In this document: one piece after another, positions 45,364 through 60,955 of the stretch
Layout of the letters: the number at the start of each line of letters is the position of its first letter
Numbering within the stretch: position 1 is the stretch's first letter
Assembly: GCA_036504055.1 (NCBI GenBank)
Contig: DASXVU010000034.1
Coordinates: forward strand, 1-64,000
Reading direction: 5' to 3'
From: Methanomassiliicoccales archaeon
GTDB taxonomy: Archaea > Thermoplasmatota > Thermoplasmata > Methanomassiliicoccales > UBA472
Length of the DNA stretch: 64,000 nucleotides
Notes under the pieces: generated by a model
What the model saw: the letters and a program-made list of their open reading frames with translations, nothing else
Told to the model about the DNA's origin: nothing
Databases searched by the model: none
Translations under genes and position numbers: made by a program

Positions 45364-46022
45364 CAGTCCCTCAGCCTCCTCATGAAAGTGGTATCGACCG
45401 TCTCGAAGGTGTGGTTGATCTTGAAGGCGAATATTCCCATTATGATCGCTGCCACCAACACGTCGAAGAAGATGCCTATCTCGACGATCATCGGCATACC
45501 ATAGGTGAGCGAGATCGCTGCCAGGAAGAGACCGTTCTCCATCATCAGCAGCCCGACGATCTCGGTCATCGCCTTGCGCCGGGCGATGATCACGAAGAAT
45601 CCGATCAATACCACCGCTAGTGAGATAGCCAGGCAGTTCTTGGTGATGACGCTTCCCTGGGCTATGATGGGTGAGGTGATGTAATAGGCGATGAAGGTGA
45701 GCGCCCCGCAGATCAAAAGCGACCCAGGTATGCTTACCAGCGGTTCTACCTCCTTCTTCACCTTGATGCGGTCCACCGTGTAGTCCAGGAACCGGGGGAT
45801 CACGATGACCTTCAGCACGATGGTCAATATCGCCACGATGTATATGTGGTCCGCCTGGGTATAGTACGCCACCGCTGCGGCCAATAGACCTAATGCCAGT
45901 GACCCGAGGGTATAGGCCCGGATGATCTGATGCATCCGGGCGCCAGCGACCATGACGAACGCGAACAGCAAGATCAGGGCGGCCAGCCCGTTGATCACAT
46001 CGGTCAGGAGTACGTCGCTCAT
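45363..46022 (-). CDS. hyfE: Membrane subunit HyfE-like (NuoK/MrpC + extension)
   Basis: 219 residues and six or seven helices. The pattern VINGLAALILLFAFVMVAGARMHQIIRAYTLGSLALGLLAA, DHIYIVAILTIVLKVIVIPRFLDYTVDRI and GLLMMENGLFLAAISLTYGMP matches HyfE, in which a MrpC/NuoK-like core (with the conserved Glu of MMENGLFL) is extended. It is needed for the proton-translocating arm. One-base overlap with hyfF and ten bases from hyfC. Confidence 0.92.
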   Translation of the reverse strand: MSDVLLTDVINGLAALILLFAFVMVAGARMHQIIRAYTLGSLALGLLAAAVAYYTQADHIYIVAILTIVLKVIVIPRFLDYTVDRIKVKKEVEPLVSIPGSLLICGALTFIAYYITSPIIAQGSVITKNCLAISLAVVLIGFFVIIARRKAMTEIVGLLMMENGLFLAAISLTYGMPMIVEIGIFFDVLVAAIIMGIFAFKINHTFETVDTTFMRRLRD

Positions 46023-46032
46023 CTTGTTCGCC

Positions 46033-46980
46033 TCATAGAATGTAGAATGACATCACCGCCAGCAGCGCAAGGGTGAACGATACGGTCAATAGGTTGGGCA
46101 GACGGAACAGCCGAAGCTTCGATATCGACGATTCTATGATGGCGATGACCAGAGCCAGGAACAGCACCTTTCCCAGGATGGCGACGAGACCGACACCGAG
46201 GCTGATGACGGACAGGTCGTTGGCGATGCCCCAGGGGAAGAACACGTTGGAGAGTATCGTGAAGTATAGGACCAACCGGGTCATGCTGGAGAGTTCCATC
46301 AGGCCCAGCTTCTTGCCGGAGTACTCGAGGATCATGCCCTCGTGGATCATGGTAAGTTCGAGGTGCGTGGTCGGGTTGTCGACGGGCACACGTGCGTTCT
46401 CGGCAATGGTCGATATGAGGAAGGCGGCGGACGCCAGGAAGAGTGCCGGGCGAACCAGGTCGATCCCCGAGATGGAGAGGGCGCTGGCGATCGATCCCAG
46501 GCTGGTGGTGCCAGATATGAGGCCCATGGCAAATATCGAGAGCAGCATGGTCGGTTCGACGATCGATGAGACCATCATTTCCCTGCTGGAGCCCATACCT
46601 CCGAAGGCGCTGCCCGCGTCTAGCGCGGCCAATGCGGTGAAGAACCGTACAGTCCCCAGAAGATATACCACGACGATGAGGTCGCCGACGAAGCCGAGGG
46701 TCCTGGTTATGAATACCGGGACAATAAGTGCGGCGATCAGCACCGCCGCCATGGAGATGTACGGAGTGACCGAGAATATCCAGGAGGTCTCCCTGGACAC
46801 GACCGAATCCTTGTGGAAGTATTTGGCGATGTCACGGTACGGCTGCAGGATGCTCGCCCCTTGCCTTTGCTGAGCGTATGCTTTGATCTTCCTGATGATG
46901 CCGGTGATCAGTGGGGCCACGGCGAGCAGGAGAAGAGCCTGCAGAACGCTCAACACTATATCGATGTAAATCTGGTCCAA
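46033..46980 (-). CDS. hyfC: Membrane subunit HyfC/NuoH-like
   Basis: 315 residues and eight helices. It has the NuoH/HycD signatures: YAQQRQGASILQPYRDIAKYFHKDSVV, the internal loop FGGMGSSREMMVSSIVEP, and ENARVPVDNPTTHLELTMIHEGMILEYSG, where the glutamates of the E-channel sit. This subunit joins the hydrophilic module to the membrane arm; in complex I the quinone tunnel runs along it. Six bases separate it from hyfB. Confidence 0.94.
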   Translation of the reverse strand: MDQIYIDIVLSVLQALLLLAVAPLITGIIRKIKAYAQQRQGASILQPYRDIAKYFHKDSVVSRETSWIFSVTPYISMAAVLIAALIVPVFITRTLGFVGDLIVVVYLLGTVRFFTALAALDAGSAFGGMGSSREMMVSSIVEPTMLLSIFAMGLISGTTSLGSIASALSISGIDLVRPALFLASAAFLISTIAENARVPVDNPTTHLELTMIHEGMILEYSGKKLGLMELSSMTRLVLYFTILSNVFFPWGIANDLSVISLGVGLVAILGKVLFLALVIAIIESSISKLRLFRLPNLLTVSFTLALLAVMSFYIL

Positions 46981-46986
46981 TTCACA

Positions 46987-49011
46987 TCACCTGAATATTA
47001 TCAATAGGAACACCAGCGTGGCGAAGATATAGGCCAGATAGGCCTGGATGCTGCCCGCTTGGATCCTCGTGACCCGGCGCGCAATGAAGACCATCGAGCC
47101 TACCACCGGCTGGTACAGGTATTTTTCGAAGACTGGCACGACAACGAAGGCATAGGATACCTTCTTTTTCACATAGGGTGAGGATGTAGATTCGGTCCTG
47201 ACCTCAGGCCTGGGCCGGTAGATGTAGCTGAAGACCCTGACCAGTGGGTTTGAGTAAGCGGTCCCGGTGTACTGATTATGGGCGGTAAGCGGAGTGCCAC
47301 AATCCCAGGTGTCTTCCACCACTGTCGTGCGTTTACCACCGTATCGATTGGAGATCACAATGACCAGCGGGACCATGATGGCTATGAGTATGGCCACCGC
47401 GAACGGCGACATGGTCGAGAACTGGTCATTGGTAGGGCTGATGACGAAACCGTTCACTATAGAAGAGGCCGCAGAAACTCCCACCAGCGGAGTGGTCACC
47501 TGGTCCACGTAGGGTATGATGGCGAAGGACATCACACCGGTGGCGATGCAGAGGAAGGCAACTATCCCGGAGCCGACCAGCATGGTCCTGGGCACCTCCT
47601 TGGCGTGTTCAGCGTGCTCGCTCCTGGGTTTTGCCAGGAAGGTGATGCCGAACAGTCTGACGAAACACACCGCCGCCAACGCGCCGGTCAGCGCCAGTAC
47701 GGCGATGGCCACCGGTAACAGGATCTTGACCGTCACGTCCGCTATCTGGAAGGACTGAAGCAGCGATTGGAATATCAACCACTCGCTCACGAACCCGTTG
47801 AACGGGGGAATGGCAGCGATGGACAAAGCTCCGATGAAGAATATTATCCCGGTCCATTTCATTCTCTTCGCCAACCCTCCAAGCTTCTCCATGTCCCTGG
47901 TGTGGGTGGCGAAGAGGATAGAACCTGCTCCCATGAACAGGGCCCCTTTGAACAAGGCATGGTTCATGACATGCAGAAGGGTTGCGATGAGCGCTAATCC
48001 AGCCAGCAAGGACAGATTGTAGGACTGGAAGACCATTGCCGCGCCGAGACCGATGAGGATTATGCCCACATTCTCCACGGTGGAGTAGGCTAGCACCCGT
48101 TTGATGTCCGTCTCCATCAAGGCGTACATCACCCCCAGCAAGGCAGAGATCGACGCAGCGAGCAGGACGAGCAGGCCCCACCAGGTATCGGTGACGCCGA
48201 GGAAGTCGAAGAACGTGCGGATCATCATGAAGATCGCGGTCTTGACCATCACACCGGACATAAGCGCCGAAACGTTCGACGGAGCGGCGGGGTGCGCGTA
48301 GGGCAGCCACACATGCAACGGTATTATCCCGGCCTTGGTTCCGAAACCGATGAAAAGAAGCACGAAGAGCGTGCTCTTGAGCGCACTGGGCATCAGTGCC
48401 CCGACCCCTGAGTAGGAAGAGAAATCGAACGAATGGTCTTGAGTGTATAGGCCCATCATGATGAGGGCGATCATGATCAGCGCCGTTCCAAGGTGGGTCA
48501 TCACGACATAAAGCAGACCGGAAGACGCGATCCCATCCTTCCGGTTCTCATACACCACCAGAAGGTAAGAGGTAAGGGACATCGCCTCCCACACGATCAG
48601 GAAGAAGATGGCGTTGCTCGCTGATATGACGAAGGTCATGGACAGCAGGAATAGGTTGAAGAGAAATCCCAGCAAACCGATGCTGTATTTGCCGTCATAT
48701 TCCTTCGAGTATCCTATCGAATAGATGGATACTGCGAACGAAACCACCGAGATCACAAGGAGGAAGAATGCGCTTAACCGGTCCAGAGTGAAACCGAAAT
48801 GCCCGAACGGAGTGTCGAACGGCAACTGCAGACTCATCGGCGAACCCGTAAGGACCAGGATTGAAACGATGGTCCCGAAGAGCGCCGATAGGGCAGCGGC
48901 ACCGAACGATGCCGAGGCACATGTCCTGTCCTGATGCCTCAGGACCACCGCCAATAAGGCACCGGCCATACCTGTTGCTATGAGTAGAAAGAAGAACAGA
49001 TCAGCGTCCAA
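46987..49011 (-). CDS. hyfB: Antiporter-like membrane subunit HyfB/NuoL-like
   Basis: 674 residues, about 15-16 helices. It includes FTLDRLSAFFLLVISVVSFAVSIYSIGY at the N-terminus, IVWEAMSLTSYLLVVYE (channel Glu), GTKAGIIPLHVWLPYAHPAAPSNVSALMSG (channel Lys), and the second-half HALFKGALFMGAGSI. A long final helix follows a variable loop, as in NuoL-like subunits. The start is TTG at 49009-49011, preceded by a GAGGGGG ribosome site. It is the first gene of the hydrogenase-like run. The 173 bases upstream hold the likely operon promoter (AT-rich runs at 49095-49150). Confidence 0.93.
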   Translation of the reverse strand: MDADLFFFLLIATGMAGALLAVVLRHQDRTCASASFGAAALSALFGTIVSILVLTGSPMSLQLPFDTPFGHFGFTLDRLSAFFLLVISVVSFAVSIYSIGYSKEYDGKYSIGLLGFLFNLFLLSMTFVISASNAIFFLIVWEAMSLTSYLLVVYENRKDGIASSGLLYVVMTHLGTALIMIALIMMGLYTQDHSFDFSSYSGVGALMPSALKSTLFVLLFIGFGTKAGIIPLHVWLPYAHPAAPSNVSALMSGVMVKTAIFMMIRTFFDFLGVTDTWWGLLVLLAASISALLGVMYALMETDIKRVLAYSTVENVGIILIGLGAAMVFQSYNLSLLAGLALIATLLHVMNHALFKGALFMGAGSILFATHTRDMEKLGGLAKRMKWTGIIFFIGALSIAAIPPFNGFVSEWLIFQSLLQSFQIADVTVKILLPVAIAVLALTGALAAVCFVRLFGITFLAKPRSEHAEHAKEVPRTMLVGSGIVAFLCIATGVMSFAIIPYVDQVTTPLVGVSAASSIVNGFVISPTNDQFSTMSPFAVAILIAIMVPLVIVISNRYGGKRTTVVEDTWDCGTPLTAHNQYTGTAYSNPLVRVFSYIYRPRPEVRTESTSSPYVKKKVSYAFVVVPVFEKYLYQPVVGSMVFIARRVTRIQAGSIQAYLAYIFATLVFLLIIFR

Positions 49012-49184: not shown

Positions 49185-51170
49185 TTACTGTTCAGTTGGA
49201 GCCCTTCCCGCAGCAAAGAACCTCATGGCCATTCCGACCGCCAATAGCCCTGCTCCGGTCCAGAGGAACGACATCAGCGGTATCTCCTTCATCTGGATAT
49301 TAGCGGTGGAATTGTCGACCCAGTCATATGTGAGGTAGATGTCCTCCAAAGATGCACTGTAGACGAACACCATGACATCGACCTTTCCCAGATCCCCGAA
49401 CAACGACAGATACATGGCCTTGAGGACCACTCCGCCTTGGATCAGTTGCCCGGAGCGGTAGAGGTCGACCGTCGCCTCTCGGACCTGATCATACCTTTGT
49501 CCGGCCACTCCTGTCACGTTGACGATATCGATCCCGGTCACTGTGACGGTGTAGCCTCCAACGCCGACGCTTCCTCCGATCGGCACCTTATTGAACTCGC
49601 CTGATGCAGGCAATGATTGGGCGTTGTTCGAGACGACGAATGTCAGGAGCATTAAGGCCACACCGAAGTGCATGACCTGGGGTCCGGCCCGGTATAGCGT
49701 CTTGCGTAAAGAACCAGGTACCCCGGAACGCATTATGCGTTCGACGGATATCGCGATCGCCGTGAGGGCTGACGGCACAACCAGGCCGATCTCCAGGCCA
49801 TAACCGAACAGGGACATGACCGTTCCCAGCACGATCGACGAGACGACCAGACCGACCGCCAGCCAGGTCATCCATCTACCCTTAACCCACCGATGGATCA
49901 GGCACAGGGACATAGCGATCAGGATGGCCGCGATGAAGAACGACATCTTCTGGTTGAACTCTGCGAAGTTCGAGGACATGGTCATGTCCACGTTCTTGAC
50001 CATTATGAGCAGGATGACTGCTGCCGCCAATACCATTATAACGACCGCCAGTGTCATGAGGGACCGGTCGGTGAAAAGCTCCCCCTCCTCCTCATCGGAC
50101 CTCGGGACGGCACGATAGTTACGATAGAGGAAATACAGCCCGGCCAGGAAGATCATCATCAAGACCGCGAAGGTGACCGCGACAACTGCATCCTTCTGAA
50201 GGGCCGCAGACAACCGTTCTGGGGCGGAAGTCACCGCACCGGTCCCGAACGAATGCACCGAAGCCGCCCATATCCCACCTGCCCGAGTAATGAATGTCAC
50301 CAGTAGAGCGGATGAGAACGTTATCATCGCTAGCGGTGCTGCCACGACCGGGTATTGCTTTCCTGTCAGGTTGCGCAGCAGGACATGGACCAGGGCGGTC
50401 GCCATCAACCATGCCAAAAGCGAGGAGGTCTCTACCGGGTCCCAGCCCCAGTATCCGCCCCACCCTATGACGTAGTAAGCCCAAACGGCGCCTATGACGA
50501 TCCCGAGGGTCAGCAAAAGCCATGCTGGCCTGGCCCATGAGAGGGCGATCCTGGTCCAGCCTTCATCCTTGCCCAACTGGTTAGACAGGGCAGCTGCGAA
50601 CACCACCATAAGCAACGCGTAGGCGGCGAAGACGAGTATCGGATGGATCGCCATCTCCGGTGTCTGCAGTGACAGGACCATTCCCTGGCCGTTGGGGTAG
50701 AGTGCCACCAACGACGGGTCGCTCGATGCGAAGAGGTTCACCGTCAAGAGCACAATGGCGAATATTGCGGTGACCGATATGGCGATCAGCCTCAACCTTA
50801 TGCTGAAAACAACAGCATCCGATTTAGCCCTTCTTTCTCTGAGGAGCTCTAAAACAATAACCAGCGACATGAGCCACGTGAGCAGGAGGAATGAACCTGG
50901 AGGGCCGGACCAGATCGCTGATAGTTTGTACACGACATCGAGGTCGGTGGACGAGTTAGACCAGACATACGCCAGCGAGGTGTCGGTCATCAGGAATGCG
51001 TAGATAAGGTAGAACATGGACAGAGTGAACGCGATGAAGGAGAGGACCAATGTGAGGTCGAATATCCTTGACAGCCTGTCCGCCTTCAGATACAATTTGG
51101 CGATCCCGCATAGGGCGGAAGCGACCATCAAGGCCGCTCCCAATATCAGTAACATGTCTCCCAGTCCCAT
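49185..51170 (-). CDS. ccmF: Cytochrome c maturation heme lyase CcmF
   Basis: 661 residues, near the usual ~650. The heme-handling WWD domain is WGGYWGWDPVETSSLLAWLMATALVH. Other hallmarks are YKLSAIWSGPPGSFLLLTW and EMAIHPILVFAAYALL, and a C-terminal outside domain of about 120 residues (VGVGGYTVTVTGIDIV, and SASLEDIYLTYDWVDNST) before the last helix. It joins heme from holo-CcmE to apocytochrome. No separate CcmH is present. It is the last gene of the ccm run; the hyf-like operon begins 174 bases downstream on the same strand. Confidence 0.93.
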   Translation of the reverse strand: MGLGDMLLILGAALMVASALCGIAKLYLKADRLSRIFDLTLVLSFIAFTLSMFYLIYAFLMTDTSLAYVWSNSSTDLDVVYKLSAIWSGPPGSFLLLTWLMSLVIVLELLRERRAKSDAVVFSIRLRLIAISVTAIFAIVLLTVNLFASSDPSLVALYPNGQGMVLSLQTPEMAIHPILVFAAYALLMVVFAAALSNQLGKDEGWTRIALSWARPAWLLLTLGIVIGAVWAYYVIGWGGYWGWDPVETSSLLAWLMATALVHVLLRNLTGKQYPVVAAPLAMITFSSALLVTFITRAGGIWAASVHSFGTGAVTSAPERLSAALQKDAVVAVTFAVLMMIFLAGLYFLYRNYRAVPRSDEEEGELFTDRSLMTLAVVIMVLAAAVILLIMVKNVDMTMSSNFAEFNQKMSFFIAAILIAMSLCLIHRWVKGRWMTWLAVGLVVSSIVLGTVMSLFGYGLEIGLVVPSALTAIAISVERIMRSGVPGSLRKTLYRAGPQVMHFGVALMLLTFVVSNNAQSLPASGEFNKVPIGGSVGVGGYTVTVTGIDIVNVTGVAGQRYDQVREATVDLYRSGQLIQGGVVLKAMYLSLFGDLGKVDVMVFVYSASLEDIYLTYDWVDNSTANIQMKEIPLMSFLWTGAGLLAVGMAMRFFAAGRAPTEQ

Positions 51171-51209: not shown

Positions 51210-52484
51210 TCAATGTTCCCCTGTTTTGGGCTTCGGCATCCCTTCACCCAACGATCCGCGCCAGAGCACAAAATATGCCAAAAAGGAGACGACAAGCACA
51301 ATGGAACTGATGAACCAGGCGACCTCGATCGAAAAGAGACCGGACACCACACCCAGGGTGACCGAGGCCACCACCCCTCCTAGTTGGGAGACCAGAGAAT
51401 CGAAGGACATCAATGTCGAGCGCTTCTCAGAAGGAATTCCGGCATTAAAGGCTGCGGCGTGAGGAGAGCCCATCAGACCTATCAGCATGTAAACAATGAA
51501 ATATAACGCGACAAAACCGATGACCGATTCTTGAAGGGCCAGGATGGTTATCGATGCCGATATCCCGACCGCAACGACCACGAGGGTCAGGTATAGGTTC
51601 CCTTTGAAAAGGTCCGCCAGTTTGCCAGAGAGGGCACTGCCCACTGAGGCCATGGCGAAGTATCCAGCAGCTACCACTCCGAATATCCAGGACTGAGAGT
51701 CGGACCCTATGATCCCCTTGAGGCGCGGTTGCCATAACAGCTCCAGACTGAACAGTGCGAACCCGAACGCCAGAGTCGCGGTCAGGAGGAGTCGGGTGTT
51801 CCTGTCGCGGATGCCGAACTCGACCGCGTCATGCAGTACATGGGGAACGTCCTTGAAACCCTGGGCAACGCTTTTTCGGCCAACCTTGATCATGTTCTCT
51901 TTTATCAGAACGGAGGTAAGCAATATCTGGACCACTACCATCAGCATCATGGCCAGAATGTTCGCAGAGTACCTTCCCATTCCGGTGAGACCGGATGCCG
52001 CTTCACCAAACAATGTAGGGATGAGCCCACCGACCAAAGCGCCCAGGGCCAGACCAATCGGGATGAAGACATTGGCGGTACCGAGGGCTTTCTGTAGATT
52101 GCCTTCAGGATGCTCCCGGTTGAACTCGTCCACGAACCAGGCATCGATGGAGCCGGAGGAAAGGGCCCGGGCAACCCCATAGATCACGAACCCGATGGCA
52201 AGGGAAATGAAGTCCCGACCGAACAGAAGGAAGATGAGGGCCAGCATCGAGACGCCAAGAGATGCGGTATAGACCCTCTTCCGCCCGATCGCATCGGCCA
52301 TTCCGCCGGTGGGCAACTCCAGGATGATCACAGTTCCTGAATAAAGGGCCAACACCGTCCCCACCTCGATCAGGCCAAGCCCTTGGTCTAAAAGTAGCAG
52401 CACCATAACCGGCGTGAACATGCCCGGTATGAACCAGTGCACCGCCTGGTTTATGATGTACCGCAGTAGGAGCCTGTCTATCAA
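51210..52484 (-). CDS. MFS transporter lying inside the ccm cluster
   Basis: 424 residues with 12 helices. Motif A lies in GGMADAIGRKRVYTA (loop 2-3), with the second half's GKLADLFKGNLY in the matching loop. The closest style is the DHA1/tetracycline-like efflux branch. It is between ccmE and ccmF on the same strand, with 65 and 39 bases on either side, a position where a dedicated substrate is plausible but unproven. It could carry a heme precursor or be a passenger gene. Confidence 0.85.
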   Translation of the reverse strand: MIDRLLLRYIINQAVHWFIPGMFTPVMVLLLLDQGLGLIEVGTVLALYSGTVIILELPTGGMADAIGRKRVYTASLGVSMLALIFLLFGRDFISLAIGFVIYGVARALSSGSIDAWFVDEFNREHPEGNLQKALGTANVFIPIGLALGALVGGLIPTLFGEAASGLTGMGRYSANILAMMLMVVVQILLTSVLIKENMIKVGRKSVAQGFKDVPHVLHDAVEFGIRDRNTRLLLTATLAFGFALFSLELLWQPRLKGIIGSDSQSWIFGVVAAGYFAMASVGSALSGKLADLFKGNLYLTLVVVAVGISASITILALQESVIGFVALYFIVYMLIGLMGSPHAAAFNAGIPSEKRSTLMSFDSLVSQLGGVVASVTLGVVSGLFSIEVAWFISSIVLVVSFLAYFVLWRGSLGEGMPKPKTGEH

Positions 52485-52549: not shown

Positions 52550-52975
52550 TCAGTACTTGGAGGCGCAACCCACGGTGACCTCGTTGGCATGGAAAGTCAC
52601 CGGCAGCCCGGCAGATATGATGCCTTTGACGACCACGCTCTTTCCGTTCTCAAACCCCGAAGGCAGCGTCCCATTCATGGTCACATGGATCGTGTCGTTA
52701 AGGTTCGTCCTGTCAGTCAACGTAAAGTTCCCGGTCCCGAACCAGTTGTTGACATTGCCTTGGACCTCCAGGTATTTGCCGACATAATGGGAGGTCCCGG
52801 CCCCGATGGCGATGGCGTCCGACGTTACGGAGGTGACCTCAAGGAAGCTCTTTCCGGTCGTGTCCCAGCCCCAGAATATGATCACCATGGCCAGGGCGAT
52901 CACGGCCACTGCCATCAGGAGGCGTTTCCTCTTGCGAGGCATGCCCTTTTTTTTCGACTTCGGCTCACTTTCCAT
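52550..52975 (-). CDS. ccmE: Heme chaperone CcmE, C-x3-Y variant
   Basis: 141 residues. An N-terminal membrane anchor (LLMAVAVIALAMVIIFWGW) precedes an OB-fold (YVGKYLEVQGNVNNWF, FTLTDRTNLNDTIHVTMNGTLPSGFENGKSVVVKGI). The heme-attachment site is at the extreme C-terminus, C137-A-S-K-Y141, where Tyr is the last residue. This is the CxxxY form known in archaea and some bacteria, with Cys in place of the usual His. It receives heme from CcmC and hands it to CcmF. Its start overlaps the ccmD gene by 11 bases. Confidence 0.9.
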   Translation of the reverse strand: MESEPKSKKKGMPRKRKRLLMAVAVIALAMVIIFWGWDTTGKSFLEVTSVTSDAIAIGAGTSHYVGKYLEVQGNVNNWFGTGNFTLTDRTNLNDTIHVTMNGTLPSGFENGKSVVVKGIISAGLPVTFHANEVTVGCASKY

Positions 52976-53114
52976 CTTGCTTGAACCTCTGCTTCAGCTC
53001 CATCAATTCCCTTTTGAGCGAGCCTTGTTTTCGGTCGATGTAGAACAGATACAGGAACAGTCCGACCCAGACCAGGGAGTAGGCGATGTAGATCGGGACC
53101 AGTTCATTGGCCAT
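52965..53114 (-). CDS. ccmD: Small membrane protein CcmD
   Basis: 49 residues, translated directly from the minus strand (ATG 53112-53114, TGA 52965-52967). One membrane helix (LVPIYIAYSLVWVGLFLYLFYI) is followed by a basic, helical tail rich in K, R, L and E (SLKRELMELKQRF), the normal CcmD plan. CcmD bridges CcmC and CcmE for release of holo-CcmE. The start overlaps the ccmC stop by one base (TGATG) and its end overlaps ccmE. Confidence 0.85.
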   Translation of the reverse strand: MANELVPIYIAYSLVWVGLFLYLFYIDRKQGSLKRELMELKQRFKQDGK

Positions 53115-54187
53115 CAGGATTCGCCCCCCATCTTCTGCTTCATGTCCTCAAGTTCGATTCTCATCTCTTCTATTTCAACCCTTTTCAGAAGCATCGCAAA
53201 GAAAAGGAAAGAAAAACCTATCACAGATACCATGACGGTCATTCCTGCCTCTAAGGATAGACTCCCTGTGCTGGACGCGATCACTTCTGGATGGCTAGAC
53301 TGAAGGAGCGGGGCTATGCGGGCGGACAAGAGACTGATCGGAACAGTGAGGAACGCCACTATGCCGTATACCGCGCTGACCCTGGCACGGCGCACCGTTT
53401 CACTGATCGATGGACGCAGTATCAGGTAACCGACGTATGCGACCCACAGTATGAAAGTGGTCACCAGCTTCGTATCCTCCCAGCGCCAATAGACGCCCCA
53501 TTCTTCCTTTGCCCATACCGGCCCGGTGAGCAGGGCCAGGGTGGCGAACACGATACCTATCTCGGCGGCCGCAAAAGCGATCGTGTCCGCCCTCTCGTCC
53601 CTCTTCCATAGATAGACGATGCTGCAAATGAAAGTGATGAAGAAGGCAAGATAGGACACCCAGGCCACTGGCATATGGAAGTAGAATATCTTCTGCGCGA
53701 GCGGGGCGGTAAGGACCTCGGGATTAGCCCCGGCCAACGATGAATCGATGCCGTTCCTGTCGCTGGAGATCGCACCGGATGATGTGACCTTGCCGTCGAC
53801 GGTCAGATTCGTTCCGGCTTGGATGGAGTAGTTTGGATCATAGGGAAGGACAACGAGCACCGGTTGTGCTGTGAAGAACGGATGACCGTAGAAGTATCCG
53901 TCCGCCCGGGCTATCGAACCGCTGGTGTAGTTGCTGCCTTTCCAAAGGAGATAATCGGAGTGGTCGATGAGCAAGAACTCATAGTCCGATCCGCCAGCGT
54001 TCTGTTCGGTGAACATCGCAACACCGGTCACTTTCATTCGGGACCCTTCCACCGACTGCAGCACCTTGTCAGCTGACCTGACCCCGCTGGTCGGAATAGG
54101 GGCGTAGAACATGGCGAGATATACGGTGAGAAGTATCAGAACGGCCGAGATTGCGACCAGCGGAATGAATAGCCTCTTGAAGTTCAT
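53114..54187 (-). CDS. ccmC: Heme exporter/handling protein CcmC with N-terminal extension
   Basis: 357 residues from ATG 54185-54187; an upstream ATG at 54226 exists but is poorer. CcmC is usually about 220-250 residues. The C-terminal part has the CcmC set: AQKIFYFHMPVAWVSYLAFF (outer His), the WWD box WGVYWRWEDTKLVTTFILW, and a second His in LLQSSHPEV. After one membrane helix, residues about 35-150 form an extra outside domain with beta-strand character (MKVTGVAMF, YEFLLIDHSDYLLW), unrecognised but OB-like. One base from ccmB; overlaps ccmD. Confidence 0.88.
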   Translation of the reverse strand: MNFKRLFIPLVAISAVLILLTVYLAMFYAPIPTSGVRSADKVLQSVEGSRMKVTGVAMFTEQNAGGSDYEFLLIDHSDYLLWKGSNYTSGSIARADGYFYGHPFFTAQPVLVVLPYDPNYSIQAGTNLTVDGKVTSSGAISSDRNGIDSSLAGANPEVLTAPLAQKIFYFHMPVAWVSYLAFFITFICSIVYLWKRDERADTIAFAAAEIGIVFATLALLTGPVWAKEEWGVYWRWEDTKLVTTFILWVAYVGYLILRPSISETVRRARVSAVYGIVAFLTVPISLLSARIAPLLQSSHPEVIASSTGSLSLEAGMTVMVSVIGFSFLFFAMLLKRVEIEEMRIELEDMKQKMGGES

Positions 54188-54188
54188 C

Positions 54189-54869
54189 TCATACCTCCAG
54201 AACATAATCGATGAGCAAGTATCCAACCACGGCGAAAAGGACTGCGAATCCTAGTACTGGCTGCAGCTGAGACAGCATCGCCGATGTATCCCCTTTTATG
54301 GCAAATCTGGTGGCCGAGACGGCCGGAAGGATGACGGCGAAGATGACCAACGGTATGGACACGATGGGGAAAAGCGCAGCCCCTGAGCGCGTTGCCGAGA
54401 CGATCGCCGCCACCAGGGTGCCTATAGCCACGATCGCCGCCGTGCCCGCCATCATGACCAGGTATAGATCGACCGCCGCCCCCGAGTAGCCGTAATCGAA
54501 GAATACCGAGAACATGACCAGGGAGAACGAGTTGACCACGGTTACAAGCAAGAAGTTGGTCAGCGCCTTTCCGGCGAACAAAGTCCCCCGGTCCACTGGA
54601 CACAGCATGAGCGCCTCCATCGTACCCCTCTGTCGTTCCTTCTCGAACGTGGCGTATATGCCAGTGACGGCGGCGAACGAGAAGCAGATCCATAGGGAAG
54701 CGGCAGAAAGCTCGGCCATGTCGATGGTGCCGGCCCGCACTGAGTCGGTGAAGGCGAACCGAAAAGCAAGGATGATCAGAAGGGAGAACAGCAACATCAC
54801 TCCCAGCATCTCCTTCGAGCGGAGTTCGACCCGAAGGTCCTTTGCGGTCAGGGCAAGCGTCCCTCTCAT
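54189..54869 (-). CDS. ccmB: ABC permease CcmB
   Basis: 226 residues and six helices. It begins TLALTAKDLRVELRSKEMLGVMLLFSLLII, continues with LSAASLWICFSFAAVTGIYATFEKERQRGTMEALMLCPVDRGTLFAGKAL and has DLYLVMMAGTAAIVAIGTLVAAI, all as in CcmB. With CcmA it forms the transporter that drives release of heme-loaded CcmE from CcmC. Four-base overlap with ccmA. Confidence 0.92.
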   Translation of the reverse strand: MRGTLALTAKDLRVELRSKEMLGVMLLFSLLIILAFRFAFTDSVRAGTIDMAELSAASLWICFSFAAVTGIYATFEKERQRGTMEALMLCPVDRGTLFAGKALTNFLLVTVVNSFSLVMFSVFFDYGYSGAAVDLYLVMMAGTAAIVAIGTLVAAIVSATRSGAALFPIVSIPLVIFAVILPAVSATRFAIKGDTSAMLSQLQPVLGFAVLFAVVGYLLIDYVLEV

Positions 54870-55579
54870 GGCTCCACCGTCCGCAAGGAGCTCTGGTAGG
54901 ACCTACGAAAATCGGGCGCTGCCATCTCTTCCCGGGAGAAGGTCGCCGTGATGACGCCTCCATCGAGCACCGCACCTTGGTCAGCAAAGGATGAGGCCAG
55001 CTCCAGATCGTGGGTCACCAGCAAACCCCCGCCGCAATCGTTCTTTTCCCTTTGTAGGATGGCGGAAAGAAGATCTATGCTCTTCAGGTCTAGACCGGAG
55101 AATGGTTCGTCAAGCAGTAGCAATCGGGGCGAGGTTATGAGCGCCCTGGCTATGGACAGGCGCCTGCTCATCCCCATCGAAAGGGTCGCGCTGATATCGT
55201 TCTTCCTCAGGCCAAGGCCCAGATCCTCCAGGAGAGCCTCCGCTCGGGGCATGAACTGTGATGATGGTCGGCCTGCCATCGAATGGAAGAAACGTAGATT
55301 CTCTATGACGGTGAGCTCGTCGTATATCAACGGAGCATGCATCACCGCCCCGATGGCTCGCCGGGCCTCCACCGGATCCGCCCTGATGTCGATACTGTCG
55401 ATCAGGACCTGCCCCTTGTCAGCTGACGATAAGGTGGCTATGATCCTGAGTAGCGTGGTCTTTCCAGCCCCGTTCGGCCCCAGGATCGCCATCATTTTCC
55501 CGCTCTCAAGGGAAAGACTGACGCCTTTCAGGACTTCTTTCCTGCCATAGGACTTCCATAGGTCCTTCACCTGCAACAT
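54866..55579 (-). CDS. ccmA: ATPase subunit CcmA
   Basis: 237 residues. Walker A GPNGAGKTTLLRII, signature SMGMSRRLSIARAL (LSGGQ relaxed to LSMGMSRR), Walker B LLLLDEPFSGLD and switch His LLVTHDLELASSF. The short, CcmA-like C-terminus and the immediate ccmBCDE neighbours fix the identity. It is the first gene of the run. A TATA-like element (TATATGATA region near 55637-55647) lies about 65 bases upstream. Confidence 0.92.
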   Translation of the reverse strand: MLQVKDLWKSYGRKEVLKGVSLSLESGKMMAILGPNGAGKTTLLRIIATLSSADKGQVLIDSIDIRADPVEARRAIGAVMHAPLIYDELTVIENLRFFHSMAGRPSSQFMPRAEALLEDLGLGLRKNDISATLSMGMSRRLSIARALITSPRLLLLDEPFSGLDLKSIDLLSAILQREKNDCGGGLLVTHDLELASSFADQGAVLDGGVITATFSREEMAAPDFRRSYQSSLRTVEP

Positions 55580-55895
55580 GTATGGCCTTTTCTCCTCAGA
55601 AGGTTCGTATTACAGCTATTCAGTTATCAAATCTTTCCTGGTATATGATATGGACAGGGGCGTGCATCGATGATCACGATGTGAAGGTCGGCTCGATCGA
55701 TCCCCTTTTGGCAGGCATATCTCGATGTGCAGTATGATCGACATACACAGAATGTAGCACATCACTGACTACAATATTACAGCCTGAAACCGAGCATCCA
55801 CACACCATCCTGCGACCGGATGTATCGCCATCCGAGGCAAAGACATTTTAAAGATGAGGCTCGAATGGTAATCAGCGACCAGAGGCTGAACCCCG
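55580..55895. promoter_or_regulatory. Divergent 316-base control region between ccmA and the surface-protein cluster
   Basis: No convincing gene. The minus strand has a TATA-like run (55637-55647) suited to ccmA. The plus strand has TTTTAAAG (55847-55854), about 45 bases before the first surface protein gene. A partial inverted repeat CATCG-n7-CGATG lies at 55666-55682. The two gene sets probably share this region, which would allow joint regulation of heme maturation and its putative substrates. Confidence 0.5.
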
Positions 55896-56564
55896 ATGAA
55901 AAGGAAGGTCGCGATATCGTTGATTACCATTTTTGCCGTTCTAGCGACGATGATGACCGTTGCCGCATTCCCGGAGACCGGTGTGCCGAACTCCAACAGG
56001 GGTGCCGATTGCGGTTTCCAGCCCGGATGCCATCAACCTGACAACTCGTTAACCATGGCCATGCAGGCCTCATCGACCTCATTGACCGCCAACCAGACCG
56101 TCTCTGTATGGGTCAACGTCACCCGGAACGGGGCCGGTGGAGAGGGAGGCAATGAGGAGACCAGCCCCCTGGCGGTCATCTTGTTATCAGGGACGACCAC
56201 CGGGAATGGAACAGACCCCCTCTCGGCAGGATGGTCCATTGTCAGCGATCCTGACGGTACAGGGTTCAACGAGAACCAGCGGAATGCAGGTACCGGACCG
56301 ACCCCCTACCACTGGGTGCTGAAGGCTCCCTCGACGGCGGGTAGCTACAAGCTCGTAGCTCAGGCCTTCCACGACGGGCCGAGCTTTACGACCTATTCTC
56401 TGGGAATTGCATTCACTGTCTCTGCGTCGACAACTCCATCGAATGGTGGATCGACCACGCAGTCCTCCACCCCCATAAGTCCGGGGATCTTTGCCATTGT
56501 GGCAACGGTCGTGATCATGTTGGCAATCATCGTGAGCTGGCTTTCTGTGAGACGGAAAAAGTGA
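55896..56564 (+). CDS. Exported surface protein with C-x5-C-H motif (Reeler/choice-of-anchor-like)
   Basis: 222 residues. Signal helix at 5-24, then a beta-rich domain (about 25-185), a Ser/Thr/Gly-rich stalk, and a membrane anchor (about 194-217) ending RRKK. Residues 39-46 read C-G-F-Q-P-G-C-H, the only CxxCH-type motif in an exported protein here; five residues separate the cysteines instead of two. The overall pattern (small Gly/Asn-rich start, cysteine-histidine motif, then VSVWVNVT, YHWVLKAPSTAGSYKL) resembles 'Reeler/choice-of-anchor V' domains, which often carry CxxCH. It is the first gene after the ccm promoter, so a cytochrome c role is plausible but unproven. Confidence 0.7.
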   Translation: MKRKVAISLITIFAVLATMMTVAAFPETGVPNSNRGADCGFQPGCHQPDNSLTMAMQASSTSLTANQTVSVWVNVTRNGAGGEGGNEETSPLAVILLSGTTTGNGTDPLSAGWSIVSDPDGTGFNENQRNAGTGPTPYHWVLKAPSTAGSYKLVAQAFHDGPSFTTYSLGIAFTVSASTTPSNGGSTTQSSTPISPGIFAIVATVVIMLAIIVSWLSVRRKK

Positions 56565-56581
56565 GAGAAAAGGTGCATTCA

Positions 56582-58603
56582 ATGAAAGGAACGAAACCGC
56601 TGGTAGTGCTTCTGGTCATACTTGTAGCTGCCATCATGGTAACGAGCCCGATCCTGGCGAGGAATGGAGGAGTGGGCAATGCTGACCAGCAGATAGGTTG
56701 CGCAGGCACCAGCAAGCACAGCACTTCAACTGCTGCGACCGTCACCATGGAAGGGAGTCCGATGAACCCGCAAGCCGGTCAGCTGGTCACGGTTTGGGTG
56801 AACGTGACCGGTGGAACGGTCGGCAGATTTGTGGGGGTGATATTGTCATCCTCCCTAGCGACCACGGCCGGAAGTCCATCGGTCGATGGATGGACCAACA
56901 TCAATGATCCTTTGGGGACGGCCTTCAACTATAACGAAAGGGTAATAACGACCACTGTCAACTCCTTCATATGGACCCTCAACGCCCCGGCCAGCGGAAC
57001 CCATGTCCTGTATGCCAAAGCGTTCTATCCTGGCCCATCTTCCACCACCTTTACCCAAGGATTGTCTTTCACGATAGGCACTGGAACCCCTCCCTCGGTA
57101 GTGATCAACGCACCCGCCGCTTCATCTACTCAATCGGGCATAGCGATGTCAGTATCTGCAACCGTGACGCCTGGCTCGGCGACACCATCCATTTCCCTGA
57201 CAATAGACGGAGTGGCGGTTGGATCACCACAGACGGTTTCCACCCCCTCATGGATGGTGGATACCACGTTGTACACCAACGCATCCCATACTCTCATCGT
57301 TACTGCCACATCGACGGCTGGAACGGGCCAAGCCTCCGTCCCCGTGACCTTCGCCAACCCCGGGCCGACCGTTGTCATCGACGGTCCCGCCACGGGATCG
57401 ACGGTATCGGGCATCACGCCCGTTGCCCTGACCGTTACACCGCTTGCCTCTTCAGCAATCGGATCGGTCACGCTGACGTTGGATTCGGGCAGCCCGATAA
57501 CCGTCCCGGCCCCCTATAATAGCTATCAACTTGATACGACTGGACTCACAAATGGTGCGCACACCATGGTTGTCAGAGCGACAGACAACCTTGGCCGCAT
57601 TGGAATAGCAGTCACATCATTCACTGTGGTCAATCAAGGTCCATCGGTCTCGATCGCACAACCGACAGATGGAAGCACGATCTCCGGGAACGTGACCGTA
57701 AACTCCACGGTGGCCCTCGGCCCTACGTCATCGCCAATAACCCAAGTGGTTTTCAGCGTGGACGGGGCATCGGTTCAGACGAAGACCGCCACTCCCTATA
57801 ACTTCACCTTTGACACGAATGCCTTCGCCAATGGAGTGCATTCGCTGACTATCCGGGCTACGGACGCCAACTTGAACAACGGTTCACACACCATCAGTGT
57901 GAGGATCGCAAACGGGGTCGTGATCACAACCCCACCATCGGTCATCATATCATATCCGATTAATGGGCAGGTCCTGGCCGGAACGATCTCGGTGAATACC
58001 ACCGTGACACCGGGAACCAACGCCGTGAATTTCGTGACCATGTCGGTGGACGGAACGATCGTGGCCAACAAATCCGCTGGGCCCTTCAATTTCAACCTTG
58101 ATACATCTAGCTACGTTAATGGAAGTAATGTGATCAATGTCACCGCCTATGATACGATGGACCTGTTGGGATTCCAGACGGTGTCGGCCACGTTCGGCAA
58201 CGCGACGGTCACGGCCCCGACGATGGGGCCTTTGGATATCGTGACACAGACGGGAACGACCCAGGTGACGGTGCCCATCACTGGACCGGTCTCATACGTG
58301 ACCCTCTCGGTCGATGGTTCGGTGATCGATAACATAACGATCGCACCCTACTCGTTCACTGTCGATACAACAAGACTCAGTAATGGGCAGCACAGTGTCA
58401 ATGTGACCGCAGTCAACGCCGGCGGAAGCAGTTACAAAGAGGCAACCATAACCGTCAGCAACGGCGTCCCGCAACCCACGACCGATCTGTCTCGGTGGGA
58501 AGCCACTATCATCGGCGGAAGTCTGCTTCTGATCGGAGGAGTAGCCTTCCTGGTAGCCTCGGTGCTGATGCTCCGCCGGTCGAAGATGAGGAGGATGCGG
58601 TAA
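56582..58603 (+). CDS. Large surface protein: Reeler-like domain with C-x4-K-H plus about five Ig-like repeats
   Basis: 673 residues from ATG 56582, preceded by GAGAAAAGGTG; GTG 56561 is an alternative. Signal helix about 7-26; a domain homologous to the preceding gene, with C40-A-G-T-S-K-H46 in place of a CxxCH motif; then about five repeats of roughly 90 residues, each with GSTxSG, TLSVDG or similar, and 'DTT...NG.H.L.V.A'. These are bacterial Ig-like (Big_9-type) domains. A C-terminal helix (about 646-666) and the tail RRSKMRRMR anchor it. The repeats hold the N-terminal domain away from the membrane. The next gene starts immediately after the stop. Confidence 0.75.
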   Translation: MKGTKPLVVLLVILVAAIMVTSPILARNGGVGNADQQIGCAGTSKHSTSTAATVTMEGSPMNPQAGQLVTVWVNVTGGTVGRFVGVILSSSLATTAGSPSVDGWTNINDPLGTAFNYNERVITTTVNSFIWTLNAPASGTHVLYAKAFYPGPSSTTFTQGLSFTIGTGTPPSVVINAPAASSTQSGIAMSVSATVTPGSATPSISLTIDGVAVGSPQTVSTPSWMVDTTLYTNASHTLIVTATSTAGTGQASVPVTFANPGPTVVIDGPATGSTVSGITPVALTVTPLASSAIGSVTLTLDSGSPITVPAPYNSYQLDTTGLTNGAHTMVVRATDNLGRIGIAVTSFTVVNQGPSVSIAQPTDGSTISGNVTVNSTVALGPTSSPITQVVFSVDGASVQTKTATPYNFTFDTNAFANGVHSLTIRATDANLNNGSHTISVRIANGVVITTPPSVIISYPINGQVLAGTISVNTTVTPGTNAVNFVTMSVDGTIVANKSAGPFNFNLDTSSYVNGSNVINVTAYDTMDLLGFQTVSATFGNATVTAPTMGPLDIVTQTGTTQVTVPITGPVSYVTLSVDGSVIDNITIAPYSFTVDTTRLSNGQHSVNVTAVNAGGSSYKEATITVSNGVPQPTTDLSRWEATIIGGSLLLIGGVAFLVASVLMLRRSKMRRMR

Positions 58604-59302
58604 ATGGTGGCCATGTCGGCAATCCATGCCTTGACCGCTGAACTGCATTCGGGGTTCCTTACCCTGGCCTTCGCGGGCATATTCCTGACATTCCTGTGCC
58701 AACTGGCTATCTCCTGGGAGAAGAGGATGCCGGGCACATTGGTCCGCTGGGCCCGTTCCATAAGAGGATATGCGGAAGCGGCCGGGATAGTAGGAGCGTT
58801 CCTTGGGTTCATAGTCCTGTTCGCCTCAGGCTACACGGGATATAGCAGCCAAGATGCCAGCACCTTGCTGCAGGACCCGATCATCCGGAACAAGGTCATG
58901 TTCACGATCTTCGCCACCATCCTGTGGGGGGCGGTGATAGTGGTCAGGCTGACCTTCAAACGGAAGCTCTGGACCTCGTTCGAGATGTCCGGACTGTACA
59001 CGTTGCTGACGCTCGGAGCGTATGGGCTGACGGTCCTGGTAGGCTCCATGGGAGGGCACATCACAAAGGGGGAAAGCTCGATCGAGCCTATCCTGAGAAC
59101 GGTCGGTTTCGACTATACGAAGCCCGTCGAGTTCGATGCCGCTCTGATGACCATCGTAGCGCTCCTTGGCATCGGTGCACTGATCATGGCATTGGTCCAG
59201 ATCAGATTGAACAATCTCTGGCGCCTCAGACCAGGGGCGAATGACGGCAACCTGCCTACATGGAGCGAGCCCAGGATGATCGAGAGGGAGGAAAACGAAT
59301 GA
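58604..59302 (+). CDS. Integral membrane protein with conserved histidines, partner of the surface protein
   Basis: 232 residues and about five helices (about 13-35, 55-78, 99-118, 129-151, 180-203). Conserved with its paralogue at 60275: His7 (AIHAL), His15 (AELHSGF), and the His in GSMGGHITKGES, plus GYAEAAGI and GYTGYSS. The His placement resembles the DUF2231-type or b-type cytochrome membrane proteins, so heme binding is possible. The gene begins directly after the upstream surface-protein gene (stop 58603, start 58604), so they are one unit. Confidence 0.65.
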   Translation: MVAMSAIHALTAELHSGFLTLAFAGIFLTFLCQLAISWEKRMPGTLVRWARSIRGYAEAAGIVGAFLGFIVLFASGYTGYSSQDASTLLQDPIIRNKVMFTIFATILWGAVIVVRLTFKRKLWTSFEMSGLYTLLTLGAYGLTVLVGSMGGHITKGESSIEPILRTVGFDYTKPVEFDAALMTIVALLGIGALIMALVQIRLNNLWRLRPGANDGNLPTWSEPRMIEREENE

Positions 59303-59345
59303 CCGTTCCATCGCGTGATCAAGCAACCACGACGGGGTGCCTTGA

Positions 59346-60275
59346 ATGAAAAGACCTGAATTGATTGGGCTGCTGTTGGTAGCTGTAGTGGCTGCCATTC
59401 TGATCGCCCCGGTGTTGGCGTTCAACGGCGGAGCAGGTTCAGGAAACCAAGAGATCGGCTGTGCTGGAACCAGTAAACACAGCGGAGGTTCAGCAACGAT
59501 CGTGATGGGGGGCAGCCCGATGAACCCGGCAGCAGGCCAACAGGTCAGTGTCTGGGTGAATGTGACGGGTGGCGCCACCGTGGGCCGGCTCTATGGAGTC
59601 ATGATAGTCTCCGCCCTAACTGCTCCCTCCCTGCCCATAAATGATGGCTGGACCGTCGTTACGGACCCTTCGACGACGGCCAACAATTATGTTGAGAAGA
59701 CCGTCGTGGCTGGTACCAATTCGTTCAAGTGGACCCTCACCGCGCCGGGGAGCGGAAGCCATACGCTGTATTCGAAGGCGTTCTATGCTCAGGGAGGGAA
59801 TGCTGCGACCATATACACCCAGGGACTCATCTTCAACGTAGGGGGAACGGGTGGAGGGGTAACCCCGAGCAATACCTCGGTGACGATCAGCTCGCCAACA
59901 GCTGGCTCTTCAGTTACCGGATCGGTGAACATCAGCGCCAACCTGGTAAACCCGGCGGGTATCTCGTATGCAGTCCTTCGCATCGATGGTGCTGTGGTTT
60001 CGAACCTCACAGCAGCCACCTATATGTGGACCTGGAACACGACGCAATACGCTGATGGGATCCACACAATCAACATCACTGCAGCCGGTAAGGACGGTAC
60101 ATTCGGATACGCTCAGAGTACGGTAACGGTGTCGAACGCCGCGGTCCAGATATTAGACCAGAACGCATGGCAATGGACCGCCATCGCTCTTATGATGTCG
60201 TCGATCGCGGTGATATCTGTGATCACGGTCTTGATCCTAATAATGAAGAAGCGCAGGATGGGAGGCGGCGACTGA
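59346..60275 (+). CDS. Second surface protein: Reeler-like domain with C-x4-K-H and one Ig-like repeat
   Basis: 309 residues. Signal helix about 6-25, then the same N-terminal domain as the previous surface proteins, with FNGGAGSGNQEIGC39AGTSKH45; next comes one Ig-like repeat (VTISSPTAGSSVTGSVNISANL, YMWTWNTTQYADGIHTINITAAG); the anchor is about 277-300 with KKRRMGGGD. Compared with the previous surface protein, four repeats are missing, so the proteins differ mainly in stalk length. Its stop overlaps the start of the paired membrane protein (TGATG). Confidence 0.75.
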   Translation: MKRPELIGLLLVAVVAAILIAPVLAFNGGAGSGNQEIGCAGTSKHSGGSATIVMGGSPMNPAAGQQVSVWVNVTGGATVGRLYGVMIVSALTAPSLPINDGWTVVTDPSTTANNYVEKTVVAGTNSFKWTLTAPGSGSHTLYSKAFYAQGGNAATIYTQGLIFNVGGTGGGVTPSNTSVTISSPTAGSSVTGSVNISANLVNPAGISYAVLRIDGAVVSNLTAATYMWTWNTTQYADGIHTINITAAGKDGTFGYAQSTVTVSNAAVQILDQNAWQWTAIALMMSSIAVISVITVLILIMKKRRMGGGD

Positions 60276-60955
60276 TGGTAGCCATGTCAGCATTGCACTC
60301 ACTGACCGCCGAACTTCATACCGGATTCCTCACCCTGGCGATGATCGGGATAGCGGTCACGTTCCTATGCCAGCTGGTCATCCGTTTTGGCCGCGGTGGG
60401 ATGTTTTCCAGATGGTCGACCAGATTGCGCGGTTACACCGAGGCCGCGGGGATAATGGGGGCCTTCTTCGGTGTCTTCGCTCTGCTGCTTTCGGCCTACA
60501 CCGGGATCAATTCGCGCTCATCGTTCGATGCCCTATACAGCGATCCGATCACCGCCAACAAGATCCTGCTGACCATCGTGGTGACGGCCATCTGGTCGAT
60601 GGTCGTTATCATCCGGTTGCGCGTAGGCAAACGGCTGTGGACCTCTGGGGGCTTCGCACTGTTCTACACCGCGACAGCAGCAGTTGGTTTCGCAATCACC
60701 GCATTGATAGGTTCGATGGGGGCTCACCTGACCCAGGGTGAGAGCACGATCGACCCGCTGTTGAACTCGGTCGGTATCGACTACATCAAGTTCTTCCTTA
60801 TGGACGCGAATCTGGCCATGATAATCTCGATCATCAGCTTGGCGGTTATCGTGATCTGCATCTTCTTATCGGCAAGGATGAGATTGCTGACGGTCCGGAT
60901 AGCCAAGAAGGACGCCAAGTGGACCCTGCCAAGGATCGAAGAGCCGAAGCGGTGA
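60275..60955 (+). CDS. Integral membrane protein with conserved histidines (paralogue of 58604)
   Basis: 226 residues. It matches the earlier membrane protein throughout: MVAMSALHSLTAELHTGFLTLA, RLRGYTEAAGIMGAFFG, and GSMGAHLTQGESTIDPLL. The three His residues are kept, and five helices are predicted. The start ATG at 60275-60277 overlaps the previous stop by one base. Together with the gene before it, this unit is a direct copy of the 56582-59302 pair, so a two-gene module has been duplicated. Function is unknown; heme or quinone interaction is a reasonable guess from the histidines. Confidence 0.65.
   Translation: MVAMSALHSLTAELHTGFLTLAMIGIAVTFLCQLVIRFGRGGMFSRWSTRLRGYTEAAGIMGAFFGVFALLLSAYTGINSRSSFDALYSDPITANKILLTIVVTAIWSMVVIIRLRVGKRLWTSGGFALFYTATAAVGFAITALIGSMGAHLTQGESTIDPLLNSVGIDYIKFFLMDANLAMIISIISLAVIVICIFLSARMRLLTVRIAKKDAKWTLPRIEEPKR

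Follow-up and report, generated by a model that had tools for sequence, protein, structure and literature searches.

Which proteins does Ccm serve in Thermoplasmatota, and could the genes encoded next to it in this genome be among them? Among 293 Thermoplasmatota genomes, 127 carry Ccm and a single one carries a class-I cytochrome c, so that this machinery has no named clients, even in an archaeal group that ranks among the most abundant in surface seawater. The stretch of DNA analyzed here (the window) covers contig C34 from its first base to 64 kb and belongs to a genome of 2.66 Mb that is 99.9% complete. It contains five plus-strand genes, at 55896-60955, facing away from a ccm cluster, for which a previous reading of the sequence alone (the sequence-only reading) had proposed a role in electron transfer at the cell surface.

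Gene content of the locus

The open reading frames (ORFs) of the window confirm the positions given to the five genes in the sequence-only reading, as well as the C-terminal anchors of the exported proteins. The locus and its surroundings comprise:

55896..56564, plus strand: surface protein A (222 aa), with a signal peptide, a Reeler-like domain, a C-terminal transmembrane (TM) anchor and no Ig repeat
56561..58603, plus strand: surface protein B, starting at GTG 56561 or ATG 56582, with a Reeler-like domain and a TM anchor
58604..59302, plus strand: membrane partner memB (232 aa), with five predicted TM helices, H8, H15 and a GSMGGH motif
59346..60275, plus strand: surface protein C (309 aa), with a Reeler-like domain, one Big_7 repeat and a TM anchor
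60275..60955, plus strand: membrane partner memC (226 aa), starting at ATG 60275, with five TM helices, H8, H15 and H151
55580..55895: divergent gap of 316 bp between ccmA (minus) and A (plus), presumably a shared promoter region
54866..55579, minus strand: CcmA, heme exporter ATPase (TIGR01189, above cut-off)
54189..54869, minus strand: CcmB (PF03379)
53114..54226, minus strand: CcmC (PF01578, TIGR01191)
52550..52975, minus strand: CcmE (PF03100), with a C-terminal CXXXY (CASKY) of the archaeal type
51210..52484, minus strand: MFS transporter, within the ccm cluster between ccmF and ccmE
49185..51170, minus strand: CcmF, heme lyase, with the WWD region (PF01578)
42320..49011, minus strand: Ehr-type complex-I-like cluster, with antiporter-like subunits, a NuoH-like subunit and a fused 30/49-kDa subunit

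The stop codon of B directly abuts the ATG of memB (gap 0), and the stop codon of C shares its final base with the start codon of memC (overlap of 1 base, TGATG), the memC start being taken as ATG 60275 and the position 60167 of the ORF listing being an upstream ATG. Each membrane gene thus begins within one base of its surface partner, as had been described. The announced differences between stalks (none, about five and one Ig-like repeats) are likewise recovered by profile search, with zero, five and one Big_7 repeats in A, B and C, respectively.

The ccm cluster holds all five genes of the archaeal CcmABCEF type, including the CXXXY of CcmE and the WWD region of CcmF; no genes for CcmG or CcmH were found in it. 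In the neighboring complex-I-like cluster, the large subunit is devoid of the CxxC nickel ligands (RISGDNG replaces the first CxxC, and the C-terminal CxxC is absent), a combination of subunits that corresponds to the Ehr (non-hydrogenase) type.

The surface proteins share a choice-of-anchor V-like domain

When used as a query in its own genome, C retrieves B (59% identity, E 1e-49) and A (34%, E 5e-13), in line with the common N-terminal domain that had been attributed to all three proteins. A fourth copy of this domain is found on contig C38 of the same genome, in a protein of 1280 aa. Within a set of 14 archaeal members, the choice-of-anchor V profile (NF041895) matches 11 (best E 6.7e-15) and that of the MXAN_6652 family (NF041894) matches 10 (best E 3.5e-7), which establishes homology at the level of the N-terminal domain. 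The curated score of NF041895 (42 bits) is exceeded by the relatives L068:12006, L068:14085 and L072, and nearly reached by G009 (35 bits) and G032 (39.7 bits). Full-length A, B and C gave no match to NF041895; they appear related to choice-of-anchor V by transitivity through their relatives only. No member of the set of 14 matched the Reeler family itself (PF02014) up to an E-value of 5, and the earlier term "Reeler-like" therefore stands in spirit, the formal family being choice-of-anchor V. Searches of Pfam and of PDB sequences with the N-terminal domain and the membrane family returned nothing significant.

The choice-of-anchor V family has no assigned function in NCBIfam, and CXXCH motifs are known from bacterial members. 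Its description includes neither a dedicated membrane partner gene, nor Ig stalks, nor a link to Ccm, all of which are present here. A small Reeler-like protein of one relative (L068:14082-14783) combines a canonical CDDCH motif, an NF041895 score above the cut-off and a PEF-like C-terminal anchor, and adjoins the gene pair of G299 on the opposite strand.

The AlphaFold model of A is a confident beta-sandwich (pLDDT 82), whose nearest folds in the PDB are the cupredoxin-like domains of AmoB/PmoB; as their TM-scores are modest, the fold alone leaves the function undecided. These best matches, together with stalk repeats and anchors that are typical of surface adhesins, would also suit a different scenario, in which adhesins or matrix proteins at the surface use a metal-free or copper-binding beta-sandwich, their cysteines and histidines forming a disulfide or binding a metal, next to ccm genes whose neighborhood was inherited without function. 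The variable spacing of the site, from CX1CH to CX5H, can be counted in favor of this scenario as well.

A cysteine-histidine site, altered in the window

One histidine (His45 in C) is invariant in 45 of 45 domains, and the cysteines preceding it define several classes. CX3CH is present in 37 sequences and CX2CH in G009; CXCH is found in the f6 genomes and in a second, long protein of the Poseidoniales-like families; CX5CH occurs in A, G113 and G119, and CX5H in B and C. Single-cysteine forms comprise CX2H (G002, G014 and contig C38) and ATSCH (G023). In the Poseidoniales-like loci L072, L075 and L077, the long CXCH surface protein (800-900 aa) precedes the CX3CH protein and its membrane partner, forming a three-gene unit.

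The CX2-3CH motif sits near the mature N-terminus and is followed, some 110 residues downstream, by a second conserved histidine (xxHHG or xxHG). The latter is present in 38/38 of the CX2-3CH members versus 4/17 of the others, counts that describe a pattern and not independent statistics, since the sequences are related and the tree needs only about four changes of each site trait. They come from the correct table of motifs and second histidines, the automatic scoring of the second histidine on the tree having misassigned G120 and RBG13. A bis-His monoheme site would be expected to leave such a pattern of motif and second histidine, and we infer that the CX2-3CH members would bind heme covalently, with bis-His ligation. 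To our knowledge, neither CX5CH nor CXCH has been established as a heme site. Genome surveys do count CX3CH among heme motifs (PMC10734462). Searched as a DNA pattern across the genome, CX3CH gave matches at a level barely above a reversed control, and thus of little information.

In the window, the site reads as follows:

A, codons 56010-56033: C39-X5-C45-H46, with the second histidine, H159, at 56370-56372
B, 56699-56719: C40-AGTSK-H46, with the second cysteine and second histidine lost (FYPG)
C, 59460-59480: C39-AGTSK-H45, with the second cysteine and second histidine lost (FYAQ)

The attachment site of c-type cytochromes, CXnCH with n of 2 to 4, is thus found in 38 relatives, and in neither A (CX5CH) nor B and C (CX5H). 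Both B and C have a tyrosine in place of the second histidine that A retains, and the C38 copy is likewise short of a cysteine and of the second histidine. In two of the three surface proteins of the window, most of the apparent heme site is thus gone, and the idea of three heme-bearing proteins, as put forward from the sequence alone, is not supported, CX2CH and CX3CH occurring only in relatives. Heme appears plausible on A, and doubtful on B and C given their loss of a cysteine and of the second histidine.

These losses in B, C and the C38 copy might also be those of a decaying relic, the module of this genome deriving from a c-type cytochrome and having no electron-transfer role left. We regard such decay as highly improbable, as none of the frames is disrupted, the three histidines persist in memB and memC, the unit was maintained after its duplication, and every copy retains the invariant histidine and at least one cysteine. 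We rather propose that B and C are paralogues, probably heme-free or altered, that would still work with their membrane partners at the surface, and that A, with its stretched site (CX5CH and a second histidine), would be the best heme candidate in this genome.

A conserved gene pair, duplicated in the window

The surface gene is directly followed by the membrane gene in 41 non-redundant loci across Thermoplasmatota, with a gap mostly between -4 and +2, a recurrence that excludes chance. In the respective trees, B and C are sisters, as are memB and memC (support 99/88 and 99/98), which indicates that the two-gene unit was duplicated, as the sequence-only reading had it, once the lineage had split from the known relatives. 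The position of A in the tree is unsure.

The membrane partner

MemB and memC are 44% identical and share H8, H15 and H151 (memC numbering), in agreement with the three common histidines noted before. These do not constitute a family trait, however: H8 alone is kept in 34/34 relatives, whereas H15 and H151 are confined to the clade of the window and lost in Poseidoniales-like relatives, which makes a conserved bis-His heme b in the membrane family unlikely. An assignment of the whole family as heme b proteins on the basis of three histidines is therefore rejected, and with three conserved histidines "histidine-rich" was an overstatement. N95 and K96 are, like H8, common to the 34 relatives, and E156 is nearly always present.

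The AlphaFold model of memC shows five helices (pLDDT 84.5). In the membrane family, loops 1 and 3 contain on average 1.8 and 2.9 lysines and arginines, and loops 2 and 4 contain 0.1 and 1.0; these charge counts would place loops 1 and 3 inside, and the N-terminus with H8, H15 and H151 outside, toward the surface partner. Cytochrome b561 and STEAP proteins account for the four best fold matches of memC in the PDB, none of them significant (best E 0.16, TM 0.31-0.45), and the bis-His pairs on TM helices that characterize these proteins were not found either. DUF2231 (PF09990) membrane proteins resemble the family in size and helical make-up and match 4/34 of its members, with a best E-value of 0.0019 and scores below the gathering threshold; the proteins of the window, including memB and memC, gave no match to PF09990.

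The presence of cysteine pairs (CX1-5C) beside Ccm, in a cluster without a CcmG or CcmH gene and always with a membrane partner, could evoke thiol-disulfide chemistry: the CX3C cysteines would form a thiol switch or reduce disulfides at the surface, and a membrane protein analogous to DsbB or CcdA would provide reducing equivalents, for Ccm as well. Yet we found no conserved cysteine pair in the membrane partner family, the histidine after the second cysteine is more conserved than the cysteines themselves, and several members have a single cysteine. This makes a thiol-disulfide system very improbable, and we retain electron transfer between membrane and surface as the preferred function.

Association with Ccm

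With the domain called at E ≤ 1e-8 and Ccm scored by PF01578, 73 of the 293 genomes have the domain and 127 have PF01578. All 73 domain-bearing genomes are among the latter, a co-occurrence that is partly phylogenetic, since most positives come from two families, f26 and f34, which we take to be Poseidoniales from their sequences and gene content. Within the order, taken to be Methanomassiliicoccales because G009, from the same family as the window's genome, is a Methanomassiliicoccaceae MAG from a fen (PMBU01000028), 10/11 domain genomes have Ccm and 10/11 Ccm genomes have the domain, and both are jointly present or absent within the genera g6 and g7. G059 (80% complete) has Ccm without the domain, and the nearly complete G023 keeps the pair with no match to PF01578. 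A frequent lack of ccm in genomes carrying these genes had been named as evidence against the module; with Ccm in 73/73 and 10/11 genomes and G023 as the exception, this objection mostly falls, and the proposed link to ccm is corroborated by the co-occurrence. Moreover, ccmF and/or ccmCBA adjoin the surface gene in the window, in G009, G014, the f6 genomes read, G299, L102, L103 and L105.

Known cytochrome c families are rare in comparison. The class-I family (PF00034) is present in 1/293 genomes, in agreement with a published survey that found neither PF00034 nor PF01322 in Thermoplasmatota (PMC9287336), and the multiheme family PF14522 (Cytochrome_C7) in 10/293; both are absent from the window's genome. 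A search for multiheme homologues gave no match in this genome (G000), and weak, probably spurious ones in its relatives. Given that all 73 domain genomes have Ccm, this rarity makes the surface family the best candidate client of an otherwise orphan Ccm, and hence a concrete and testable answer to the question of what Ccm serves.

In each of the f6 genomes (G029, G032, G041, G045, G055, G057), a single PF01578 gene (CcmF) was found and CcmC was not detected, so that their Ccm is incomplete by the PF01578 test; this lone heme lyase lies beside a CXCH surface protein and NapH. In other families of Thermoplasmatota, many PF01578 matches read through exactly one in-frame TGA (e.g., G113:C341, G119:C427, G211:C12, G129:C185, G136:C78), which could reflect gene junctions, recoding or assembly errors.

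Electron-transfer proteins in related loci

On contig C38 of the window's genome and in G002, G014 and f6, the gene after the one for the surface protein encodes a NapH-type ferredoxin, and in G014 and f6 the two genes are also next to CcmF. On contig C38 (L030:9758-14891), the long surface copy and the ferredoxin precede a small membrane protein with CGIICGSCPLGGAC, and in f6 a cysteine motif similar to CGIICGSCPLGGAC is fused to the C-terminus of NapH. In G299 and L105, the gene of a multiheme cytochrome separates ccmA from that of the surface protein, and a molybdopterin oxidoreductase is present in G299 as well. These neighbors substantiate the electron-transfer setting that had been suspected from the window. 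On C38 and in G002, G014 and f6, NapH/MauN-type ferredoxins (TIGR02163) fill the slot of the membrane partner, although they are iron-sulfur proteins unrelated in sequence to memB and memC. That the surface domain is paired with either of them suggests that memB and memC may also handle electrons, and electron transfer is likely the role of the surface and membrane family.

This interchange of NapH and the membrane partner also bears against the adhesin scenario, as do the co-occurrence with Ccm in 73/73 genomes, the repeated adjacency to ccmF in different arrangements and the near absence of class-I cytochrome c from the phylum. Adhesins would in turn account for the pair without Ccm in G023, and for the missing AhbD described below. 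Altogether we consider them unlikely, though less so than the other alternatives, and continue with a redox function of the pair.

Possible sources of heme

No genome of the order, the Ccm-bearing Methanomassiliicoccales relatives included, passes the cut-off for the heme b synthase AhbD, and the window's genome gives only generic radical-SAM-level matches. Like the pair without Ccm in G023, this result speaks against heme in the window. Published work also mentions CcmCF in species devoid of AhbABCD (PMC8351635). The window's genome may scavenge heme, produce it by another route or not use it. One could thus imagine that the pair captures heme or porphyrin, the surface domain binding external heme and the membrane protein helping its delivery to the Ccm pathway or the cell; the surface location, the linkage to Ccm, and the presence of Ccm where heme b synthase is not recognized would all fit. 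Such a role appears improbable, as motifs with cysteine pairs point to covalent attachment and not to capture, the pair has neither a permease for uptake nor an ATPase beside it apart from CcmAB, an exporter, and Poseidoniales-like relatives carry the same pair. We thus return to a c-type cytochrome as the likelier ancestor of the surface protein.

Proposed function and comparison with known systems

We propose that the five genes derive, by local duplication, from a surface redox module of two genes that is conserved in Thermoplasmatota. To judge by the sequences of relatives, the ancestral surface protein was anchored to the cell and bore CX2-3CH and a second histidine on a beta-sandwich of the choice-of-anchor V (Reeler-like) type. 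Presumably it was a c-type cytochrome with a single heme under bis-His ligation, for whose maturation CcmABCEF would have served. Its five-helix partner would pass electrons between a membrane carrier pool and the surface domain, and this pool might be linked to the Ehr-type complex as electron source. Taken as a whole, from the duplicated module and its monoheme ancestor to the five-helix electron partner, A as best heme candidate and the altered B and C, this proposal is in our eyes an even call. Slightly below that we would place the broader view that the orphan Ccm of Thermoplasmatota, with the marine Poseidoniales-like families among them, serves an unrecognized class of surface monoheme cytochromes based on a Reeler-like domain (CX3CH and a second histidine). 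Together with their five-helix partner, these would conduct electrons across a single membrane, and certain methanogen-related lineages, the present one included, would have drifted from the covalent heme site as the pair was duplicated.

We found no description of the surface-membrane module in a literature search, and it is real and widespread and, as proposed initially, apparently undescribed. The Thermoplasmatota-wide relatives, marine plankton included, suggest that the pairs descend from an unrecognized type of surface cytochrome c. Our observations also suggest surface electron exchange in relatives of methanogens that are usually regarded as cytochrome-free.

Two known systems invite comparison. 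In animals, the Reeler-DOMON-cytochrome b561 (CYBDOM) ferric reductases, such as SDR2 and CG8399 (PMC10691727), also join a Reeler domain at the surface to a small helical membrane redox protein, a part to which memC is weakly similar through its top fold matches. Here, however, there are two separate genes, no DOMON domain and no conserved heme-His pairs, and the likeness is one of architecture. The monoheme c-type cytochromes of Methanosarcina (PMC9084895) differ in having a class-I fold where we find a Reeler-like beta-sandwich, with CX5CH or CX5H in the window's genome; they are matured by the same archaeal CcmABCEF with a CXXXY-type CcmE that accompanies the surface proteins here, whose relatives carry CX2CH and CX3CH.
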